64,000 bases of DNA, taken from Mucilaginibacter achroorhodeus (GTDB lineage Bacteria; Bacteroidota; Bacteroidia; Sphingobacteriales; Sphingobacteriaceae). The notes beneath the pieces are model-generated. The model was given only the letters and a program-made list of their open reading frames with translations. It had not been told where the DNA came from and ran no database searches. This document shows, one piece after another, positions 28,177 to 36,187 of this stretch. Location: NCBI RefSeq assembly GCF_007846095.1, contig NZ_VOEI01000003.1, positions 124,001-188,000 on the forward strand, given 5' to 3'. Numbering within the stretch: the stretch's first letter is position 1; each line of letters begins with the position of its first letter. Both the position numbers and the translations under genes were made by a program.

Positions 28177-28734
28177 TTGAGAAGATTTCTGGCTATATTG
28201 CTACTAAGCGTACATCTGTTTAATGCAGGTGGGTATACCGTTATCTTCGAGTATTTCATCCATCGATCCGAGCAGCAGATCGTTAAACAGATCTACGAAA
28301 ACAAGGTTGATGCTACTCAACTTGTGCAAATAAAAGTTCCTGTTCACACGCCGGGCATTCAAGACTGGCCGGATTATGAAAAAGTTCAAGGACAAGTTCA
28401 ATTAAAAAACGGTTTCTACAATTATGTTGGCGTTAAGATGACCAGGGATACCATGTACCTTGTTTGTGTGGCCAACGAAGTAAAGAACAAATTATTTGAG
28501 GCTAACACCATTATAGCCAAAAATGTAAGTGATGCGCCTTTAACTAAGAAAGGGCAGGAGCCATCAGCTAAAAAACTAAGTTCTCCGGTATCAGAATACA
28601 ATGTACCGGTCACCCAGGTAAATTTTCTGAATTTTAATGATCCTTCTCTACAAAGGGGAAATCTTATATCTTCTGTATTAACCCATCCATACATCGAATC
28701 TCCGGGCAAGCCGCCCAATCAACTTATTGGTTGA
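28177..28734 (+). CDS. Small exported protein of unknown function
   Basis: 185-aa protein starting at TTG (28177), the only start that includes the N-terminal signal peptide (MRRFLAILLLSVHLFNAGGY). The mature part has a soluble alpha/beta-like region with FEYFIHRSEQQIVKQIYENKVD and ends in a proline-rich low-complexity tail (ESPGKPPNQLIG). I do not recognise the family. It resembles small exported proteins that precede outer-membrane genes in Sphingobacteriaceae, but this is only an impression. Separated by 181 bp, with dyad elements, from the outer-membrane/haloperoxidase genes that follow. Confidence 0.7.
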   Translation: MRRFLAILLLSVHLFNAGGYTVIFEYFIHRSEQQIVKQIYENKVDATQLVQIKVPVHTPGIQDWPDYEKVQGQVQLKNGFYNYVGVKMTRDTMYLVCVANEVKNKLFEANTIIAKNVSDAPLTKKGQEPSAKKLSSPVSEYNVPVTQVNFLNFNDPSLQRGNLISSVLTHPYIESPGKPPNQLIG

Positions 28735-28802: not shown

Positions 28803-28837
28803 TCAGATGTATATGCATAACGCAGAATACAATTAAG

Positions 28838-28877
28838 CACCGGCCATCAAATTTGTGAGATTTTTTGGCGGCCGGTG
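28838..28877 (+). other. GC-rich hairpin before the beta-barrel gene
   Basis: CACCGGCC / GGCCGGTG perfect 8-base stem with a 24-nt loop, 38 bp upstream of the next start codon. It could end transcription from the 185-aa gene or sit in the leader of the next operon; the T run after it is short. Confidence 0.4.
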
Positions 28878-28915
28878 TTTATTGATACTTTTTATCCCGA
28901 TTACTTTAAACCCTT

Positions 28916-29854
28916 ATGAATAAAACTTTACAATATATAAAGTATTGTATCAGTGCGTTTGCTGTAATGGCTTTAAGCCAAACAGCTAAGGCTCAAACCG
29001 AGTCAGACGCGTTGATGATACCTAAAAATTACTTTTGTGCAGCCGGCGTTTACACCCATAATAGCTGGGACCACTACTGGGAAGGCACCTTTAGACGCGA
29101 TAATCTTAACCTTGGTACTGTGAGCAGCAACGTATATGCCCTTGGCGGTAACTACGGTTTAAGCAACCGCATCAATTTACTTTTTATGGTACCGTATGTT
29201 AAAACCAATGTTTCTGCGGGTACACTACGCGGACAGCAGGGTTTTCAGGACATAAGCCTTGCGTTTAAATGGATGGCTGTAAAGCAGGAGGTTGGCACGG
29301 GTTTACTTAGCTTACATGCTATTGTATCAGGCAATATACCGGTTGGCAATTACCAGGCAGATTACCTTCCACTTTCTATAGGTATGCGCAGCAAAAGCAT
29401 TGCTGTTAGAGGCTTATTAAATTACCAGGTAGGCAGGTTCTTTGTTGCCGGCGCAGGGCAATACGTTCGCCGCGATAATATTACTATCGATCGTGATTCT
29501 TACTTCACAACAGAGATGCATTACACCAATCAGGTTGCAATGCCAAACATGACCAATTTTTTATTCAGTACAGGTTACCGCAGCTTAAAATTTAATGCCG
29601 AGGTAACGCTTACGCACATGAATACCATTGGTGGTTTCGATATCACCAAAAACAACATGCCATTCCCAAGCAACAATATGCAGGCAACGGCGGTAGGCAG
29701 CATTTTTAAGTACATGTTCCAGTCGATACCGGGTCTTGAGTTTACGGCAGGCGGCAGTTGGGTATTGCACGGCCGTAATTACGGACAGAATTTAGGCGTG
29801 TTTGGCGGTGTTTACTACGTATTCTCAACCAAAGGAGAAAAATCAGATAAATAA
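28916..29854 (+). CDS. Predicted outer-membrane beta-barrel protein
   Basis: 312-aa protein with a signal peptide (residues 1-27, ending SQTAKAQ). The mature part shows alternating hydrophobic strands, e.g. ALGGNYGLSNRINLLFMVPYV, GYRSLKFNAEVTLTH, and ends FGGVYYVFS, as in transporter-like 'MetA-pathway of phenol degradation' barrels. No specific function is assignable. The next gene, a haloperoxidase-like lipoprotein, starts 8 bp downstream, so the two are cotranscribed. A second, distantly similar barrel protein closes the cluster. Confidence 0.8.
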   Translation: MNKTLQYIKYCISAFAVMALSQTAKAQTESDALMIPKNYFCAAGVYTHNSWDHYWEGTFRRDNLNLGTVSSNVYALGGNYGLSNRINLLFMVPYVKTNVSAGTLRGQQGFQDISLAFKWMAVKQEVGTGLLSLHAIVSGNIPVGNYQADYLPLSIGMRSKSIAVRGLLNYQVGRFFVAGAGQYVRRDNITIDRDSYFTTEMHYTNQVAMPNMTNFLFSTGYRSLKFNAEVTLTHMNTIGGFDITKNNMPFPSNNMQATAVGSIFKYMFQSIPGLEFTAGGSWVLHGRNYGQNLGVFGGVYYVFSTKGEKSDK

Positions 29855-29862
29855 TATTACAG

Positions 29863-31413
29863 ATGAAAAAGAATTTACTACATATATTACCAGTGATGTT
29901 TGCGGCGGTATCGGTACTTACATCATCTTGTAAAAAAGAAATTGTTGAGCGGAACATGGAGTTCCCGGCGTTAGCACCAGCTAACTTAGACCTAAACGCT
30001 GATACCTGGAAACCTATTCTGACCAGCTCTTCTACATTTACCGTTACTGCACCCGATGCTGTGACTTCGCCAAATTATCTTGCCGATCTTAACGAAATTA
30101 AAAGCTATCAGCGCAACTTAACAAAGGAACAGCGAGACATTATCACTTACTGGAGCGCAGGATCAGTACTTCGCTGGAACGAGATTTTACGCGATCTGGT
30201 TGCTAAACACAACTTACCGCCTTATCAAAAAGATGGTGGTACTTACCCGGCTCCAAGTGCTGCCAACCCTTTAGCTTATCCATTATTTCCTTTTGCTAAT
30301 CCGCCTTACGCTGCCCGTGCTTATGCTTATGTAAGTGCTGCTCAATACGACGCACTGGTACAAGCCTGGAAATTTAAAAAACAATATAACCGCCCTGCGC
30401 CCTACAAAACTGATGCGGCAATTAATGCTTTAGTGCCAAAATCTGACCTGCCTTCTTACCCAAGTGAGGATGCAGTGGTGTCAGGGGTTACTGCTAAGAT
30501 GATGGAGTTACTTTTCCCGGGTGATCTGGATTTTATTCGCCAGAAAGCTGCTGAAGAAAAATTATACCGTATTATGGCTGGTGCAAATGCCCGCTCTGAT
30601 ATGGACGCAGGTGAATCTTTAGGTCGCCAGGTTGCTGATGTGTTCTTAGCCCGCGCTCGAACAGATAAAGCAGGTGCAGCTATTGGTACGAAAGAAATAT
30701 GGGATAAACTGGAAGCAGATACAAAAGCAACGGGCCAAATCCCATGGATAAGTTTAGAGTTGCCAAAACGCCCGCCAATGTTGCCATTGTTCACAAAAGT
30801 TACACCATTCTTATTTGCTCCTGAGACTGTTGTTGCTTTGCGCCCGGCTCCGCCATACTCTACAAGCTCGCCTGAGTTCAAAAAAGAAGCGGACGAAGTG
30901 TTGCAAATGAGCATGAACCGCAGCCGCGAACACGAGCGCATTGTAGCATTTTGGGCAGATGGCGTAGGTACAGTTACACCTCCGGGACACTGGAACACCA
31001 TAGCTGCTGAGGAGTTTGTAAAACATAATTTAAGCGAAGTGCGCTGGGCACGTAACTTTGCATTATTGAACATGGCCGAAATGGATGCAGCAATAGTATG
31101 CTGGGATGCCAAGTACGCCTACTTTAATCCTCGCCCTTGCCAATATATGCTTGATATAAAGACCCTTACCGGCGTGCCAAACTTCCCGTCATATACATCT
31201 GGACACTCTAACTTTAGCGGCGCAGCTGCCACTATTTTAGGCTACCTGGTGCCGGAGCGTAAAGACGACTTTATGGCAATGGCGAACGAGGCTGCGATGT
31301 CAAGATTATACGGCGCTATTCACTACCGCAGTGACTGCGAAGTTGGCTTAAAAACCGGTATCAAAGTAGGCGAATATGCAATAGCTCGCGCTAAAACAGA
31401 TGGTGCTAACTAA
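29863..31413 (+). CDS. Vanadium-dependent haloperoxidase / PAP2-type lipoprotein
   Basis: 516-aa predicted lipoprotein (MKKNLLHILPVMFAAVSVLTSSCKK; lipobox cysteine near residue 23). The C-terminal domain has the complete PAP2/vanadium haloperoxidase phosphate/vanadate pocket: KYAYFNPRP (K-x6-RP), YTSGHSNFSG (PSGH-like, with SGHS) and SRLYGAIHYRSD (SR-x5-H-x3-D). Thus it is either a vanadate-dependent halide oxidase or a phosphatase; residues alone do not decide. The N-terminal half is helical, as in bacterial haloperoxidases. Flanked by a barrel protein and a DoxX-like protein in the same operon, consistent with an envelope-located oxidative function. Confidence 0.88.
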   Translation: MKKNLLHILPVMFAAVSVLTSSCKKEIVERNMEFPALAPANLDLNADTWKPILTSSSTFTVTAPDAVTSPNYLADLNEIKSYQRNLTKEQRDIITYWSAGSVLRWNEILRDLVAKHNLPPYQKDGGTYPAPSAANPLAYPLFPFANPPYAARAYAYVSAAQYDALVQAWKFKKQYNRPAPYKTDAAINALVPKSDLPSYPSEDAVVSGVTAKMMELLFPGDLDFIRQKAAEEKLYRIMAGANARSDMDAGESLGRQVADVFLARARTDKAGAAIGTKEIWDKLEADTKATGQIPWISLELPKRPPMLPLFTKVTPFLFAPETVVALRPAPPYSTSSPEFKKEADEVLQMSMNRSREHERIVAFWADGVGTVTPPGHWNTIAAEEFVKHNLSEVRWARNFALLNMAEMDAAIVCWDAKYAYFNPRPCQYMLDIKTLTGVPNFPSYTSGHSNFSGAAATILGYLVPERKDDFMAMANEAAMSRLYGAIHYRSDCEVGLKTGIKVGEYAIARAKTDGAN

Positions 31414-31433
31414 TAAAATATAAGTGCAGGGTG

Positions 31434-32222
31434 ATGAAGACTGAGCAAAAGATCCATTACGTATTACGAATAGCCATAGCCATGTGTTTTATTGGCCATG
31501 GTTCATTCGGTATTATTACTAAGCAGATTTGGTGCAATTATTTTGCGGTGTTTGGCATAGGCACGAAAGCGGCCTATGCCCTAATGCCGTGGGTAGGAGC
31601 TGCGGATATCGCTTTGGGTTTGATCATGCTTTTCAGGCCGATGCGGGCAATTGCGCTTTGGCTGGTTGTATGGGGAACGTTAACAGCATTTCTGCGCCCC
31701 GCATCAGGCGAGCCTTTTGCGGAGTTCATTGAAAGGGCCGGCAACTTCGGCGCACCGCTGGCTATGCTTATCCTGTCAGGAGGAATTAAGAGCTTTAAAA
31801 ATTTGTTTGAGCTTATAGATCCTGCGGCCGAAGTTGACGCCAAGACCATGGCGCGGGTTTATAACTGCCTTAAAACAGTTGGTTTTTTGTTATTGATAGG
31901 ACACGGCTGGCTTAATCTCTTGCAAAAGAAAAGTCTGCTTGGGCAATATGCATCGCTCGGCTTTACAGAACCGGCTAAAGTGGCGCAAATGGCAGGAGTT
32001 TTCGAGATAACGGCCGCTGTGCTGGTGTTGTTTAAGCCTATCCGCAACCTGATCCTCATTTTTATTATATGGAAAGCTGCAACCGAACTATTTTATCCCA
32101 GGTACGAGATATTTGAATGGATAGAGCGCGGTGGTAGCTACGGCACTTTGATAGCCTTATGGCTCTCATTAAAACAAGTTTCTTCAAATCTCACAATACC
32201 GTTCTTATCAAAAAAATTCTGA
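31434..32222 (+). CDS. DoxX-like membrane protein with internal duplication
   Basis: 262-aa membrane protein with about eight hydrophobic helices. Residues ~10-117 and ~143-255 are similar to each other: the first half has CFIGHGSFGI and FIERAGNFGAPLAM, the second has LLIGHGWLNL and WIERGGSYGTLIAL, so it looks like a head-to-tail duplication of a four-helix DoxX-type unit. DoxX-like proteins are linked to electron transfer or quinone reactions, but the evidence is thin. The GTG at 31431 is followed at once by ATG at 31434, used here. Cotranscribed with the haloperoxidase-like gene (20 bp). Confidence 0.78.
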   Translation: MKTEQKIHYVLRIAIAMCFIGHGSFGIITKQIWCNYFAVFGIGTKAAYALMPWVGAADIALGLIMLFRPMRAIALWLVVWGTLTAFLRPASGEPFAEFIERAGNFGAPLAMLILSGGIKSFKNLFELIDPAAEVDAKTMARVYNCLKTVGFLLLIGHGWLNLLQKKSLLGQYASLGFTEPAKVAQMAGVFEITAAVLVLFKPIRNLILIFIIWKAATELFYPRYEIFEWIERGGSYGTLIALWLSLKQVSSNLTIPFLSKKF

Positions 32223-32263
32223 TTTTTTAGAGGGGGACTTTCAACCAACCAATCACCTTTTTT

Positions 32264-32281
32264 GCAATCCTTCAGGGTTGC
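32264..32281 (+). other. Small hairpin in the leader of the second barrel gene
   Basis: GCAATCC / GGGTTGC (one wobble) with a 4-nt loop, 30 bp upstream of the ATG. It may set differential expression within the cluster; there is no T run. Confidence 0.3.
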
Positions 32282-32311
32282 CTGTCATTCTATTACCTAA
32301 AAACCCACAAA

Positions 32312-33415
32312 ATGAAACTGATTTACAAGGTGCTTGCGGGCACTATCATATTTATAATATTTAACAATGTAACAGCAAACGCACAAGGCTGTGTAGCTAT
32401 CAGCGGCAAAGGCGCATTCACTGTAATGGAACATCCTATGCTTGATAGCAGTATCACTCCCGGCAAAGAAAGCAGCTGGGTATTTACATCAGCTTACCGC
32501 TACTTTCACTCTTACAAGCACTTTAAAGGTACAGAAGAACAAAAGCAACGTCAAACCTTACATAACGAAGTGGTAAACTTTCAAAATACCATTGATCTGA
32601 GCCTTACTCGTAATTTCAACCGCTTCTGGTCTGTTACTGTAGGTATTCCTTACCTCATAAACATCCGATCCTCACTTTATGAGCACGGCGGTAAAGAACG
32701 CCACAGGTCGTATTCACATGGTTTTGGCGATGCCCGCGTTGTTGCTTATCGCTGGTTGTTTGATCCGCGGACCTCACATAACGGAAACCTGCAGGTTGGC
32801 TTAGGTATTAAATTGCCTACGGGAGATTATAATTATCACAGTTATTTTTACAACGTAACACCGTCGAACCGTCCGGTAGATCAATCTATCCAATTAGGCG
32901 ACGGCGGAGTAGGCGCAATAGCCGAGTTAAATGGCTTTTTGCATCTGGGAGGACGTTTCAGCGGTTACACCAATTTGTATTATATGGCCAACCCGCGTAA
33001 CACAAACGGCACGCGTACTTACCGCGAAACATTAAGCCCGCTACTTGCTAATGAAAGCATCATGAGTGTGCCGGATCAATACCTGGCGCGATTAGGAGTA
33101 AATTATACCTTTAATGGTTCGTTCAGCGCACTCACCGCATCAGTTGGTGGCCGTATGGAGGGTATCCCGGTGCGCGACCTGATCGGGAAAAGTGATGGTT
33201 TCCGTCGTCCCGGCTACATCATATCGGTTGAGCCTTCGTTAAACTACAGTTTGAAGAGAGTTAACCTTTTTGCGAGCGTTCCTGTTGCTTTGAAAAGAAA
33301 CCGCCAGCAAAGTGTAACTGATAAAGAGAATTCGGCGAAAACAGGCACTTATGTGATAGGTGACGCAGCTTTTGCGGATTACTCTATCAATTTCGGTGTG
33401 TCCTTTAAGTTTTAA
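32312..33415 (+). CDS. Predicted outer-membrane beta-barrel protein
   Basis: 367-aa protein with a signal peptide (residues ~1-24, ending TANAQ). Mature strands alternate polar and hydrophobic residues (SWVFTSAYRYFHSYKHF, FWSVTVGIPYLINI, LQVGLGIKLPTGDYN) and the last residues are SINFGVSFKF, a typical C-terminal strand ending in F. The LPTGDY element recalls phenol-degradation 'MetA'-type barrels. Histidines cluster in the early strands (residues ~65-75 and 125-135), which could bind metal. Last gene of the haloperoxidase cluster, followed by a strong terminator. Confidence 0.8.
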   Translation: MKLIYKVLAGTIIFIIFNNVTANAQGCVAISGKGAFTVMEHPMLDSSITPGKESSWVFTSAYRYFHSYKHFKGTEEQKQRQTLHNEVVNFQNTIDLSLTRNFNRFWSVTVGIPYLINIRSSLYEHGGKERHRSYSHGFGDARVVAYRWLFDPRTSHNGNLQVGLGIKLPTGDYNYHSYFYNVTPSNRPVDQSIQLGDGGVGAIAELNGFLHLGGRFSGYTNLYYMANPRNTNGTRTYRETLSPLLANESIMSVPDQYLARLGVNYTFNGSFSALTASVGGRMEGIPVRDLIGKSDGFRRPGYIISVEPSLNYSLKRVNLFASVPVALKRNRQQSVTDKENSAKTGTYVIGDAAFADYSINFGVSFKF

Positions 33416-33430
33416 TTATATTGGTTCTAT

Positions 33431-33459
33431 AAAAGCCGGGGTGGTTCCCGGCTTTTTTT
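33431..33459 (+). terminator. Terminator of the haloperoxidase cluster
   Basis: AAAAGCCGGG / CCCGGCTTTT with a short loop followed by TTT; stem of 9-10 bases, 15 bp after the stop codon. Confidence 0.9.
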
Positions 33460-33503: not shown

Positions 33504-33968
33504 ATGAACTCTGCTGAACAAAACTTCAAAGAAACAGGCTTAAGCCTTCCGCCGGCGCCAAAACCGCTTGGTGTTTATAAACCATGTTTAATTGATGGTA
33601 AGTATCTGTATCTGTCGGGCCACGGCACCGTGCAGGACGACGGGTCACTTATCATTGGTCGTGTAGGCGATACTATCGATATGGAAAATGGTAAGCTTGC
33701 TGCAAGGCAGGTGGGTTTGGCCATGCTGGCTACCATCAAGGAAAACCTGGGTAGCCTGGATAGGATTAAACGCGTAATTAAGGTTTTAGGCATGGTTAAT
33801 TGCACGCCCGATTTTGAACGCCATCCTTACATCATTAACGGTGCAAGCGAATTGTTTGCCCAAGTTTGGGGCGAAGAAAATGGTATTGGCGTGCGCAGTG
33901 CGGTGGGTATGGGATCATTACCGGATAATATTCCTGTTGAGATAGAAGCGCTATTTGAACTGGTTTAA
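33504..33968 (+). CDS. RidA family protein (enamine/imine deaminase-like)
   Basis: 154-aa YjgF/RidA-fold protein; trimeric members hydrolyse reactive enamine/imine intermediates released by PLP enzymes. The usual catalytic arginine near the C-terminus (consensus P.R..V) is matched by GVRSAVGMGSLPDNIPVEIEALFE near residues 130-152. It is 14 bp upstream of a PLP-dependent enzyme, which fits the family role well. Its N-terminal 30 residues (PPAPKPLGVYKPCLIDGKYLYLSGHG) are the normal family start. First gene of a four-gene operon. Confidence 0.92.
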   Translation: MNSAEQNFKETGLSLPPAPKPLGVYKPCLIDGKYLYLSGHGTVQDDGSLIIGRVGDTIDMENGKLAARQVGLAMLATIKENLGSLDRIKRVIKVLGMVNCTPDFERHPYIINGASELFAQVWGEENGIGVRSAVGMGSLPDNIPVEIEALFELV

Positions 33969-33982
33969 ACGTAGCATATCCT

Positions 33983-35095
33983 ATGGAAAATCCTGATTGG
34001 TATATCATTGATAAAGTTGATGAATTAGATACACCTGCACTTGTTGTGTATCCTGAAAGGGTGAGCTACAATATTGATCTTTTGAAAGCGATGGTTGATG
34101 ATGTAGCACGTTTGAGACCGCATGCTAAAAGCCATAAAAGCGCTGCTGCTGCTAAATTGATGATCCGGAAAGGTATAATCAAGTTTAAATGCGCCACTAT
34201 TGCCGAAGCAGAAATGTTGGGCATGGCCGGAGCTAAGGATGTACTCTTAGCTTACCAACCGGCGGGACCAAAGCTTAAGCGGTTTATCGAGGTGATAAAA
34301 ACTTATCCGGATACTCAATATTCCTGTTTGGTGGATAATGAACAATCCGCACTTGAAATTTCTGAACAGGCAATCGCTAACAATCTGATCATCCCCGTTT
34401 TTATTGATCTGAATATTGGTATGAACCGCACAGGCATAAAGTCTGTAGATGCGTTGGCGTTATATTCGCGTTGTAACGCCTTACCTGGTTTGTCTTTGAA
34501 AGGCTTGCATGCTTACGACGGCCACATCCATGATAGTGATTTTGAGGTAAGACGGAAACGTTCGGATGAAGCGATGCAGCCTGTTCTTCAATTAACTAAA
34601 GATTTGCAAAAACAGGGCTTCGAAAAGCCACTGCTAATAGCCGGAGGTTCGCCAACTATGCCCATCATAAAAGAAATTAAAGATGCAGAGCTTAGTCCCG
34701 GTACTTTTGTGTATTGGGATAAAGGCTATGGTGATGCCTACCCCGAACAGCCCTTTAAACCGGCTGCTTTGTTGATAGCACGCGTAATTTCATTACCTGA
34801 TGAAGCTAAGATATGTATTGATCTTGGCCACAAATCAGTGTCTGCAGAGCGCCCGCTTAACGAACGCGTTTTTTTCCTTAACGCGCCAGAACTGAAATTT
34901 GTGAGCCACAGCGAAGAGCATCTTGTAGCTGATGCCGGCGCTGGTCATAACTATAAAGTTGGCGATGTGTTGTATGGTCTGCCTTTTCATGTTTGCCCTT
35001 CGGTAGCACTGTATGAAAGGGCTCTCACCGTCGAAGATAGTATCATTTCAGGTGAGTGGAAAATCATTGCAAGAGATAGAAAGATAAACATTTAA
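33983..35095 (+). CDS. D-threonine aldolase-like PLP-dependent enzyme
   Basis: 370-aa fold type III PLP enzyme of the D-threonine aldolase / D-serine dehydratase-like group. The N-terminal barrel has LDTPALVVYPERVSYNI and the PLP lysine in RPHAKSHKS (~residue 50), followed by FKCATIAEAEMLG and later AGGSPTMP; the C-terminal beta domain carries the likely metal ligands (HSEEHLVADA.AGHNYKVGD... PFHVCPSV). It probably cleaves or dehydrates a D-hydroxy-amino acid. The RidA gene before it could clear the imine products; the dipeptidase after it could supply the substrate. Confidence 0.9.
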   Translation: MENPDWYIIDKVDELDTPALVVYPERVSYNIDLLKAMVDDVARLRPHAKSHKSAAAAKLMIRKGIIKFKCATIAEAEMLGMAGAKDVLLAYQPAGPKLKRFIEVIKTYPDTQYSCLVDNEQSALEISEQAIANNLIIPVFIDLNIGMNRTGIKSVDALALYSRCNALPGLSLKGLHAYDGHIHDSDFEVRRKRSDEAMQPVLQLTKDLQKQGFEKPLLIAGGSPTMPIIKEIKDAELSPGTFVYWDKGYGDAYPEQPFKPAALLIARVISLPDEAKICIDLGHKSVSAERPLNERVFFLNAPELKFVSHSEEHLVADAGAGHNYKVGDVLYGLPFHVCPSVALYERALTVEDSIISGEWKIIARDRKINI

Positions 35096-35116
35096 TATTC
35101 GAGCGATTCAAAAGAT

Positions 35117-36187
35117 ATGTTCACGATAGATGCACACTTAGACCTAAGCATGAACGCTCTTGAGTGGAACCGCGACCTGACACAACCGGTTGCCGCCATC
35201 AATGCGCGTGAAGTTGGTTTAACTGACAAACCAGACAGGGCTAAAGCCGTTGTGGCCTTGCCGGAGTTGAGGAAGGGAAAGATAGGGTTGGTGGTTGCAA
35301 CGCAGTTAGGTCGTTACGTTGCGCCTAATAATCATTTGCCCGGGTGGCATTCGCCGCAACAGGCATGGGCGCAAACCCAGGGGCAACTTGCTTGGTACAA
35401 AGCCATGGAGGATGCGGGCGAAATGGTGCAGATAAATGATCTTGCATCTTTAGAGTCGCATGTAAGCCTGTGGCAAAATGATAATGACAGTACTAATAAG
35501 CCGATAGGTTATATCTTAAGCTTAGAAGGGGCAGATTCCATCGTGGATGTTTCCTACTTGCAAACGGCATACAATTATGGACTTAGGGCTTTAGGCCCCG
35601 CGCATTACGGGCCGGGGCGTTATGCCAACGGAACCGATGCAACGGGGGTGATGGGTGATAACGGCCTGCAACTACTTAAAGAAATGGAGCGGCTGAACAT
35701 CATCTTAGATGCCACTCATCTGTGCGATGATGCTTTTTGGCAGGCGCTGGATAATTTTGGCGGCTATGTTTGGGCAAGCCATAATAATTGCCGCGCACTG
35801 GTTAATCATAACCGCCAGTATAGCGACGAAATGATAAGGGCATTGATAAACCGCGGCGCTGTTATAGGCGCAGCCTTAGATGCCTGGATGATGGTACCAG
35901 GATGGGTTAGAGGACAATCAGATCCTAAACAAATGAATTGTAATTTGGAAGTGATGGCCGATCACATAGACCACATTTGCCAGATTGCCGGTAACGCTTT
36001 GCATGTAGGCATGGGCACCGATTTGGATGGTGCTTTTGGCAGGGAGCAATGTCCATACGACTTGGAAACCATCGCAGACCTGCAAAAAGTACCTGGTATT
36101 TTATTAAAAAGAGGATACAGCCAAACAGATATTGAAAATATGATGTATGGCAACTGGCTACGTTTTCTACGTAACGCCTGGAAATAA
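35117..36187 (+). CDS. Membrane dipeptidase family protein (peptidase M19)
   Basis: 356-aa zinc amidohydrolase-fold dipeptidase. The first zinc motif is DAHLDLS (HxD), the bridging glutamate is in YILSLEGADS, zinc histidines in LDATHLCDDAFW and VWASHNNCRAL, and the substrate aspartate in MGTDLDGAFG. M19 enzymes hydrolyse dipeptides, often with a D-residue at the C-terminus. There is no signal peptide, so it acts in the cytoplasm. It is third in an operon with RidA and a D-amino-acid enzyme, consistent with degradation of D-residue-containing dipeptides. Confidence 0.92.
   Translation: MFTIDAHLDLSMNALEWNRDLTQPVAAINAREVGLTDKPDRAKAVVALPELRKGKIGLVVATQLGRYVAPNNHLPGWHSPQQAWAQTQGQLAWYKAMEDAGEMVQINDLASLESHVSLWQNDNDSTNKPIGYILSLEGADSIVDVSYLQTAYNYGLRALGPAHYGPGRYANGTDATGVMGDNGLQLLKEMERLNIILDATHLCDDAFWQALDNFGGYVWASHNNCRALVNHNRQYSDEMIRALINRGAVIGAALDAWMMVPGWVRGQSDPKQMNCNLEVMADHIDHICQIAGNALHVGMGTDLDGAFGREQCPYDLETIADLQKVPGILLKRGYSQTDIENMMYGNWLRFLRNAWK

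Follow-up and report, generated by a model that had tools for sequence, protein, structure and literature searches.

A strictly paired outer-membrane barrel and vanadium-haloperoxidase-like lipoprotein in an envelope gene cassette of Mucilaginibacter achroorhodeus and other Bacteroidota

Gene organization of the locus

A 64,000-nucleotide (nt) stretch of the Mucilaginibacter achroorhodeus genome (RefSeq assembly GCF_007846095.1, contig NZ_VOEI01000003.1, positions 124,001 to 188,000 of the forward strand; hereafter the window) contains a cassette of envelope genes in which a lipoprotein of 516 amino acids (aa) resembling vanadium haloperoxidases follows an outer-membrane barrel. An earlier note made from the letters of the window had proposed that barrel, lipoprotein, DoxX-like protein and a second barrel stand in one direction with small gaps before a terminator, and that an exported protein of 185 aa upstream may belong to the set. 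All four open reading frames (ORFs) were found in that order on the + strand, with gaps of 8, 17 and 89 nt by ORF coordinates and a terminator after the last gene:

28177-28734, + strand: exp185, a small exported or membrane-anchored protein with a TTG start, the upstream gene of the set
28835-28880, + strand: candidate cis-regulatory hairpin between exp185 and barrel A, with a stem of ~17 bp and a 12-nt loop holding an invariant TTGTGAGAT
28916-29854, + strand: barrel A, 312 aa, a predicted 12-strand outer-membrane barrel and the obligate partner of the enzyme
29863-31413, + strand: long vanadium-haloperoxidase-like lipoprotein, 516 aa (the long enzyme), with a PAP2 match, lipobox Cys23 and the pocket
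31431-32222, + strand: DoxX2, 263 aa, a membrane protein of two fused DoxX-like repeats (hhalign of its halves)
32312-33415, + strand: barrel B, 367 aa, a second, distantly related outer-membrane barrel with a PTGDY loop and weak FapF and MipA matches
33431-33456, + strand: intrinsic terminator, an 11-pair hairpin with a T tail, at the end of the cassette

The terminator was the best of nine such hairpin sites between 27300 and 34200; as shuffled sequences held 6.9 +/- 2.8 sites, their number is not above chance, and it is the hairpin at 33431-33456 that stands out individually. An Rfam scan of the window returned two transfer RNAs only.

Conservation of gene order and of the barrel A and enzyme pair

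Gene order was compared in 80 named loci, mainly from Mucilaginibacter together with Chitinophagaceae such as Sediminibacterium and Puia, which are close relatives because they were located by patterns taken from the window's enzyme, and in a survey of 395 Bacteroidota genomes chosen by an even draw. The best named locus for the window's enzyme is that of M. conchicola, with 92% identity in the enzyme. Barrel A stood immediately before the long enzyme on the same strand in all 80 loci. The genome survey, in which three candidates per genome were scored at an expectation value (E) of 1e-40 or less, yielded 30 long enzymes in 29 genomes as well as 30 strong matches (above 120 bits) to the barrel A profile, and every one of the 30 enzymes sits behind a strong barrel A match on the same strand with -5 to 108 nt between the matched parts. 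This pairing persists down to 38-46% enzyme identity in families f23 and f25, which lie outside the class of the window in the kinship listing. Weak barrel A-like matches alone were present in 22 other genomes, and no enzyme was found at the loci of the seven examined (L139-L145).

The other genes of the cassette were more variable. Of the 80 loci, 62 had exp185 in the same-strand run with the enzyme, 48 had barrel B, 44 had DoxX2 and 10 had a short haloperoxidase, and short haloperoxidases also occurred in such runs for 5/26 enzymes of a second, more divergent set described below. These accessory gene counts are lower bounds: selecting ORFs by length overlooked barrel B in L116 at least, and several contigs end within the cassette. 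The commonest order (25/80) was exp185, barrel A, enzyme, DoxX2 and barrel B, with or without a Rid-like gene after it, and the alternative order of DoxX2, barrel B, barrel A and enzyme also occurs. The strict pairing (80/80 and 30/30) beside a variable remainder indicates that barrel A and the enzyme are an obligate pair and the others accessory. The adjacency of the pair rules out a chance gene order, a check that the earlier note had called for; its four genes do co-occur here, but the minimal unit is barrel A plus the enzyme, while DoxX2 and barrel B come and go. Its suggestion on the 185-aa protein agrees with the frequency of exp185 in the 80 loci and with its position upstream of 19 of the 30 surveyed enzymes.

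Outside the phylum, the best plasmid hits, seven records of 30-31% identity, are annotated as PAP2 phosphatase or as large repeat proteins, and the pairing of barrel A and enzyme is so far a Bacteroidota trait. Among the titles listed in searches of open-licence PMC full texts, none reports a channel paired with a haloperoxidase.

Pocket and fold of the long enzyme

The 516-aa protein matches the Pfam family PAP2 (E 4e-16). In an alignment of 81 long homologues (the 80 loci and the window), Cys23, W414, K417, R424, F441, S446, G447, H448, R481, H487 and D491 were all invariant. Aligned to the vanadium iodoperoxidase of Zobellia (ZgVIPO), the protein has K417, R424, S446, G447, H448, R481 and H487, the complete set of what we take to be the vanadate pocket (Lys, Arg, Ser-Gly-His, Arg and the axial His), and the lipoprotein with a full pocket that the earlier note described is thereby borne out. 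In the second set of 27 sequences (26 enzymes from genomes and the window), which reaches down to 38% identity, Cys23 was invariant (27/27) and the pocket intact in 26/27. The sole exception, lacking the G, H, R and H, is the enzyme of a second tandem copy in L126. This additional barrel A and enzyme pair (L126:4434-5942) has kept its barrel and lost its enzyme pocket, the aligned changes being G447D, H448Q, R481E and H487S.

The best solved relative by sequence is ZgVIPO (PDB 4cit), found at E 1e-18 with the enzyme alone and 3e-24 with the family profile. An AlphaFold2 model of the enzyme (predicted local distance difference test, pLDDT, 86.5) has the haloperoxidase double bundle, the two-helical-bundle architecture of vanadium haloperoxidases. 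With VIA-align the model superposed on 4cit with Z 33.0 over 355 aligned residues, a root-mean-square deviation (rmsd) of 2.6 and 24% identity, followed by XhnO11 (Z 26.8), NapH1 (25.6), NapH3 (25.3) and the Curvularia vanadium chloroperoxidase (VCPO; 24.8), and a Foldseek search with the model also placed 4usz/4cit first. Algal and cyanobacterial bromoperoxidase-type enzymes reached only Z 10.9-12.6 over 224-228 residues. Acid phosphatases gave Z 14.0 or less over ~190 residues, and lipid phosphatases Z 9.2-12.9 (Bacillus subtilis 5jki 12.9, LpxE 12.1, PgpB 10.0, LPP1 9.2-9.6). The earlier note had asked with which of these groups the enzyme clusters: it is nearer to the vanadium haloperoxidases (Z 33.0 and 24-27) than to either kind of phosphatase, and lipid phosphatases are ruled out as nearest kin. 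Judged by modelled fold and by pocket, the protein is predicted to be a vanadium haloperoxidase that would oxidise a halide. Three residues before the pocket Lys it carries a Trp, a position discussed for chloride activity in part of PMC11871015; this residue decides nothing between halides because ZgVIPO has Trp there too.

Barrel A as a predicted channel

The AlphaFold2 model of barrel A (pLDDT 74.3) consists of 12 long strands plus two short ones. Its best structural match is 4rl8, a COG4313 channel of Pseudomonas putida F1 (Z 25.8, 253 aligned, rmsd 2.2), with the NalP and FapF barrels (both Z 22.9) and other barrels behind it. COG4313 channels are described in sections of PMC4493636 as 12-strand barrels with a mature protein of 270-320 aa, which agrees with the 12 long strands modelled here and with the 312 aa of barrel A including its signal. 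COG4313 channels have an inserted N-terminal segment that occludes the lumen; residues 1-28 of barrel A were modelled at pLDDT below 50. The same source places Pro119 and Tyr123 in a conserved patch of Pput2725, and in barrel A the identically spaced P142 and Y146 are invariant in 43/43 aligned relatives, with a Gly between them in 10/43. PF13557 (Phenol_MetA_deg) was matched by 4/43 relatives (best E 1.8e-9), with no match of the window protein at E 1 or less.

As COG4313 channels are implicated in the uptake of hydrophobics, with TcpY proposed for trichlorophenol (part of PMC4493636), barrel A may be regarded on its modelled structure as a channel of COG4313 type whose small-molecule substrate would be hydrophobic and probably aromatic. 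The theme of hydrophobic or aromatic chemistry raised in the earlier note has gained support from this model, a gain that does not extend to halide oxidation; the humic or plant-derived substrates that it named for the set are a guess.

Accessory and neighbouring genes

The two halves of DoxX2 align with an hhalign probability of 97.8 and a score of 74.6, in comparison to at most 18.4 in 20 column-shuffled controls, so the duplication noticed earlier is real. The protein scores just below the DoxX_3 cutoff (24.8 versus 25) and further below that of DoxX (16.6 versus 23.6), while 21/23 of its relatives match DoxX, and 21/23 DoxX_3, at E 1 or less. Of the nine survey genomes with DoxX2, eight have it near a haloperoxidase, six of them same-genus cassettes and two beside a short haloperoxidase (L172, L173), and one does not (L171).

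Barrel B matches the Pfam family MipA weakly, and its family profile matches FapF at E 0.002. Its PTGDY motif stands at a COG4313-like loop, where P is conserved in 20/27, T in 26/27 and G in 27/27 sequences. Barrel B occurs in 31 of the 395 genomes: near the long enzyme in 14, in the order exp185, short haloperoxidase and barrel B without the long enzyme in three (L155-L157), and near a weak short-haloperoxidase match and ASPIC/FG-GAP proteins in two (G202 and G343; L168, L169, L184).

exp185 matches no Pfam or NCBIfam family, yet its G19-Y20 and C-terminal P179-P180 are invariant in 32/32 aligned sequences. Sequence-profile searches of the PDB with exp185 and with DoxX2 returned no relatives. 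Paralogues of exp185 occur elsewhere, and the one in the window's own genome (G000:C11, L176) adjoins a TonB-dependent siderophore-type receptor; receptors 38-54% identical to it stand in several haloperoxidase loci. exp185 may have a supporting role in outer-membrane transport units.

Several neighbours hint at aromatic or oxidant chemistry. A gene for PaaN, of phenylacetate degradation, accompanies 2/4 long-enzyme loci (L137, L138) and 3/3 barrel B loci (L165, L166, L170) of family f25, the profile having been run on L138 and L165 only and its cutoff passed in both. AhpD-like genes are present in seven copies in 5/80 loci (one was profiled, at 81.2 bits against a cutoff of 81.8), and a DUF417 protein in L169 weakly resembles the chlorine-resistance protein RclC (E 1.6e-5; 24.8 bits versus 275); both fit oxidant handling. 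In Haemophilus, hypochlorous acid induces a DoxX-like operon (PMC7907618). Divergent neighbours that we take to be YeeE-like (18/80 loci) and thioredoxin-like (13/80) were considered with respect to sulfur oxidation via DoxX, which was set aside as these genes are divergently placed and lineage-specific. A protein with a MetE-like cobalamin-independent methionine-synthase domain lies inside or beside several cassettes (L077:3328-4401, the one profiled, with homologues in L064, L067, L074, L078, L116 and L146).

Behind the terminator of the window, at 33504-36187, genes for a Rid-like protein, a D-serine-dehydratase-like protein and an M19 dipeptidase stand consecutively, each also present in 43/80 relative loci. 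These were considered as cassette members and set apart as a separate, possible D-amino-acid or dipeptide catabolic cassette.

A hairpin upstream of barrel A

The intergenic stretch that holds the hairpin at 28835-28880 folds better than 200/200 shuffles (z -3.44). Among 12 distinct sequences (the window and 11 Mucilaginibacter loci), 94.4% of cells were paired over 15 pairs. Eight pairs had changed on both sides (shuffles 4.5, with 9/500 as high), and double-change cells numbered 20 in comparison to 6.4 +/- 2.4 in shuffles (0/500 as high) and at most 6 in slid versions; the count of pair types was ordinary (89/500), one pair is broken in 8/12 and the sequences are mutually related. A cruder scan upstream of barrel A found hairpins with TTGTGAGAT that beat the best of 20 shuffles in 8/11 relatives and only tied with it in three (L008, L009, L017).

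In the window's genome a covariance model found one strong + strand copy, at 28835-28880 itself, with the next best place at E 0.08; a dispersed repeat as the origin of the hairpin is ruled out for this genome by that single strong match among the 150 of 3079 first-look candidates that were scored. When the model was run on 20 further genomes of the genus, a strong match (G399) and a moderate one (G214, E 3e-5) each lay just upstream of barrel A, and five weaker ones (E 7e-4 to 0.005) had no cassette genes within ~3.5 kb. Another 22 cassette loci gave no match; in the window the hairpin has no T run directly after it and no Rfam match. Covariation in the stem together with conservation of the loop argues for a structured element, whether RNA or DNA, over a protein site in duplex DNA. 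The hairpin is best described as a candidate cis-regulatory element present in some Mucilaginibacter only.

Short haloperoxidases

The short haloperoxidases, taken as a family profile of eight sequences, match ZgVIPO at E 1e-151 in comparison to 3e-24 for the long family. Against 4cit the short-family profile scored 508.6 bits over 8-442 and the long-family profile 88.9 bits over 147-509. The close relatives of ZgVIPO are therefore the short enzymes of sister loci and not the long enzyme, for which these 88.9 bits do not indicate a close full-length relationship.

Ten of the 18 short haloperoxidases examined carry Cys in place of the SGH Ser (TCGH), which gives these otherwise intact VIPO-type enzymes an unusual pocket (L059, L060, L062, L068, L069, L071, L118, L119, L155 and L156). 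Elsewhere in its 4.28 Mb, the genome of the window encodes four short VIPO-type haloperoxidases with intact pockets (L002-L005; G000 C1, C8, C10 and C7). ASPIC/UnbV FG-GAP proteins were located near short haloperoxidases or barrel B in L168, L169, L172 and L173 (profiled in L169 and L172), and the one in L172 is sorted by the type IX secretion system.

Functional interpretation

Outside natural-product clusters, few bacterial vanadium haloperoxidases have a clear role. Part of a 2026 survey (PMC12871659) describes iodoperoxidase-like groups as still without a validated protein. We propose that barrel A and the 516-aa lipoprotein may form a two-gene envelope module with the enzyme lipid-anchored at the outer membrane, where, with vanadate bound in its K/R/SGH/R/H pocket, it would oxidise a halide with H2O2, more probably iodide or bromide than chloride. 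The hypohalous species would then halogenate or oxidise a molecule entering or leaving the periplasm through the channel. exp185 might assist outer-membrane transport units, DoxX2 could act as a redox protein of the inner membrane and limit collateral damage from oxidants, and barrel B would be a second channel that elsewhere also accompanies Zobellia-type short haloperoxidases. The core of this proposal, a lipoprotein haloperoxidase whose hydrophobic substrate passes through a dedicated channel, is given about an even chance of being correct.

Several observations weigh against this proposal. Searches of Pfam, NCBIfam and the PDB also give acid-phosphatase similarity for the enzyme core, and D491, in an H-x3-D invariant here, is present in the acid phosphatases 7f17 and 1d2t, whereas ZgVIPO (4cit) has H-x3-A. 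The window's barrel A matches no Pfam family, its family profile found no PDB chain, and DUF2490 is a weak rival match in 5/43 relatives (best E 0.0027) in comparison to 4/43 for Phenol_MetA_deg; the COG4313 assignment consequently rests on a model of pLDDT 74 and four relatives. exp185 is not upstream of 11/30 long enzymes, DoxX2 occurs in only 9/395 genomes, and barrel B lacks a haloperoxidase in the stretch examined in 12/31 genomes (in two of the 12 it stands beside exp185), which makes its pairing with the short enzyme suggestive and not strict. Outside the phylum, no channel is annotated beside the gene in the 3/7 plasmid homologues opened (Rhizobium, Phyllobacterium), for which the gene table is incomplete.

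The phosphatase similarity could mean that the enzyme is a periplasmic PAP2-superfamily phosphatase that keeps the double bundle, with barrel A as a porin whose substrate is phosphorylated or lipid-like. The pocket is common to both enzyme groups, and apo-VCPO can dephosphorylate according to the title of PDB entry 3bb0. What we take to be the class A acid phosphatase signature (K-x6-RP, PSGH and SR-x5-H-x3-D) is found here in its first and last parts, with S480-R481-x5-H487-x3-D491 in the acid-phosphatase form, while T, S, I, V or A replaces the P before SGH; the NCBIfam family PhoC matches weakly (27.5 bits versus a cutoff of 430). Instead of a compact acid-phosphatase domain of ~230 aa, however, the enzyme has 516 aa and two bundles, agreeing in fold and length with haloperoxidases, and acid phosphatases align over only ~190 residues. 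In addition, the W414 and F441 invariant in 81/81 match the aligned residues of ZgVIPO and the modelled channel type is one for hydrophobics, so we consider a phosphatase unlikely. A role in oxidant defence is held equally unlikely: here the enzyme would remove H2O2 via halide as a pseudo-catalase, the barrels would leak halide or small oxidants and DoxX2 and neighbouring genes would repair damage, with no specific organic substrate. This would accommodate the AhpD-like gene in 5/80 loci and the divergent neighbours in relatives that, from their sequence, are presumably cytochrome bd and thioredoxin-like genes (c14 in 11, c16 in 10 and c12 in 13 of 80 loci), as well as a DoxX-like operon of Haemophilus that is induced by hypochlorous acid (HOCl; part of PMC7907618) and a suggestion that haloperoxidases defend against oxidative stress (part of PMC4926216), but it leaves the one-to-one dedicated channel unexplained, and both the cytochrome bd and the thioredoxin-like genes are encoded on the other strand and confined to particular lineages.

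Two further alternatives appear highly improbable. A haloperoxidase homologue might catalyse rearrangement or hydrolysis of a channel-delivered small molecule without halide oxidation, as NapH3, a rearrangement catalyst by its PDB title and among the nearest folds (Z 25.3), and the L126 tandem copy that retains its own barrel A after losing its pocket would fit such an enzyme; the strict conservation of the full vanadate pocket speaks against it. Equally slight is the likelihood that barrel A is a surface-display or secretion barrel of FapF or autotransporter type bringing the lipoprotein to the cell surface. One-to-one pairing fits a dedicated exporter and FapF and NalP follow closely behind 4rl8 (Z 22.9 versus 25.8), but the 312 aa of barrel A comprise signal plus barrel with no passenger or periplasmic secretion domain, and 4/43 relatives match Phenol_MetA_deg.

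A wider version of the channel-coupled haloperoxidase proposal would be a modular system in Bacteroidota in which a COG4313-like barrel is dedicated to each type of haloperoxidase (A to the long, B to the short), halogenation takes place at the periplasmic mouth of the channel on a molecule in transit, DoxX2 guards the membrane against the hypohalous by-product and an RNA hairpin controls the operon in some Mucilaginibacter. This is a tentative and rather doubtful extension; if true, it would make halogenation a part of how soil bacteria take up aromatics or modify signals. With a partner channel so strictly conserved, hydrophobic or aromatic molecules that depend on barrel A are the place to look for a substrate. 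Should the enzyme oxidise halide, organics would be halogenated at the envelope in many soil and water Bacteroidota, with a bearing on organohalogen cycling.

Comparison with known systems

ZgVIPO of Zobellia galactanivorans (4cit, 4usz) shares with the long enzyme the double helical bundle and a pocket of W, K, R, F, SGH, R and H. It differs in being a PDB chain of 458 aa and not a lipoprotein of 516 aa with an N-terminal extension, in its 24% identity, in having H-x3-A where H-x3-D is found here, and in that the enzyme described here always stands behind a channel gene. The Curvularia VCPO, NapH1, XhnO11 and NapH3 have the same two-bundle fold (Z 24-27) at 13-22% identity; lipoproteins that pair with a channel are not known among vanadium chloroperoxidases or their relatives XhnO11 and NapH3. 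Class A acid phosphatases (7f17, 1d2t, PhoN) have the PAP2 core and SR-x5-H-x3-D in common with the enzyme, whereas their chains are of ~210-250 aa and align at Z 14.0 or less over ~190 residues. DoxX2 differs from the DoxX and DoxX_3 families in that two repeats are fused in one 263-aa chain. The COG4313 channels (Pput2725 4rl8, TcpY and SphA) share with barrel A the 12-strand barrel, as modelled, and the P-x-x-x-Y loop; barrel A is only 15% identical, belongs to Bacteroidota and is found with a haloperoxidase rather than in an aromatic-degradation operon.

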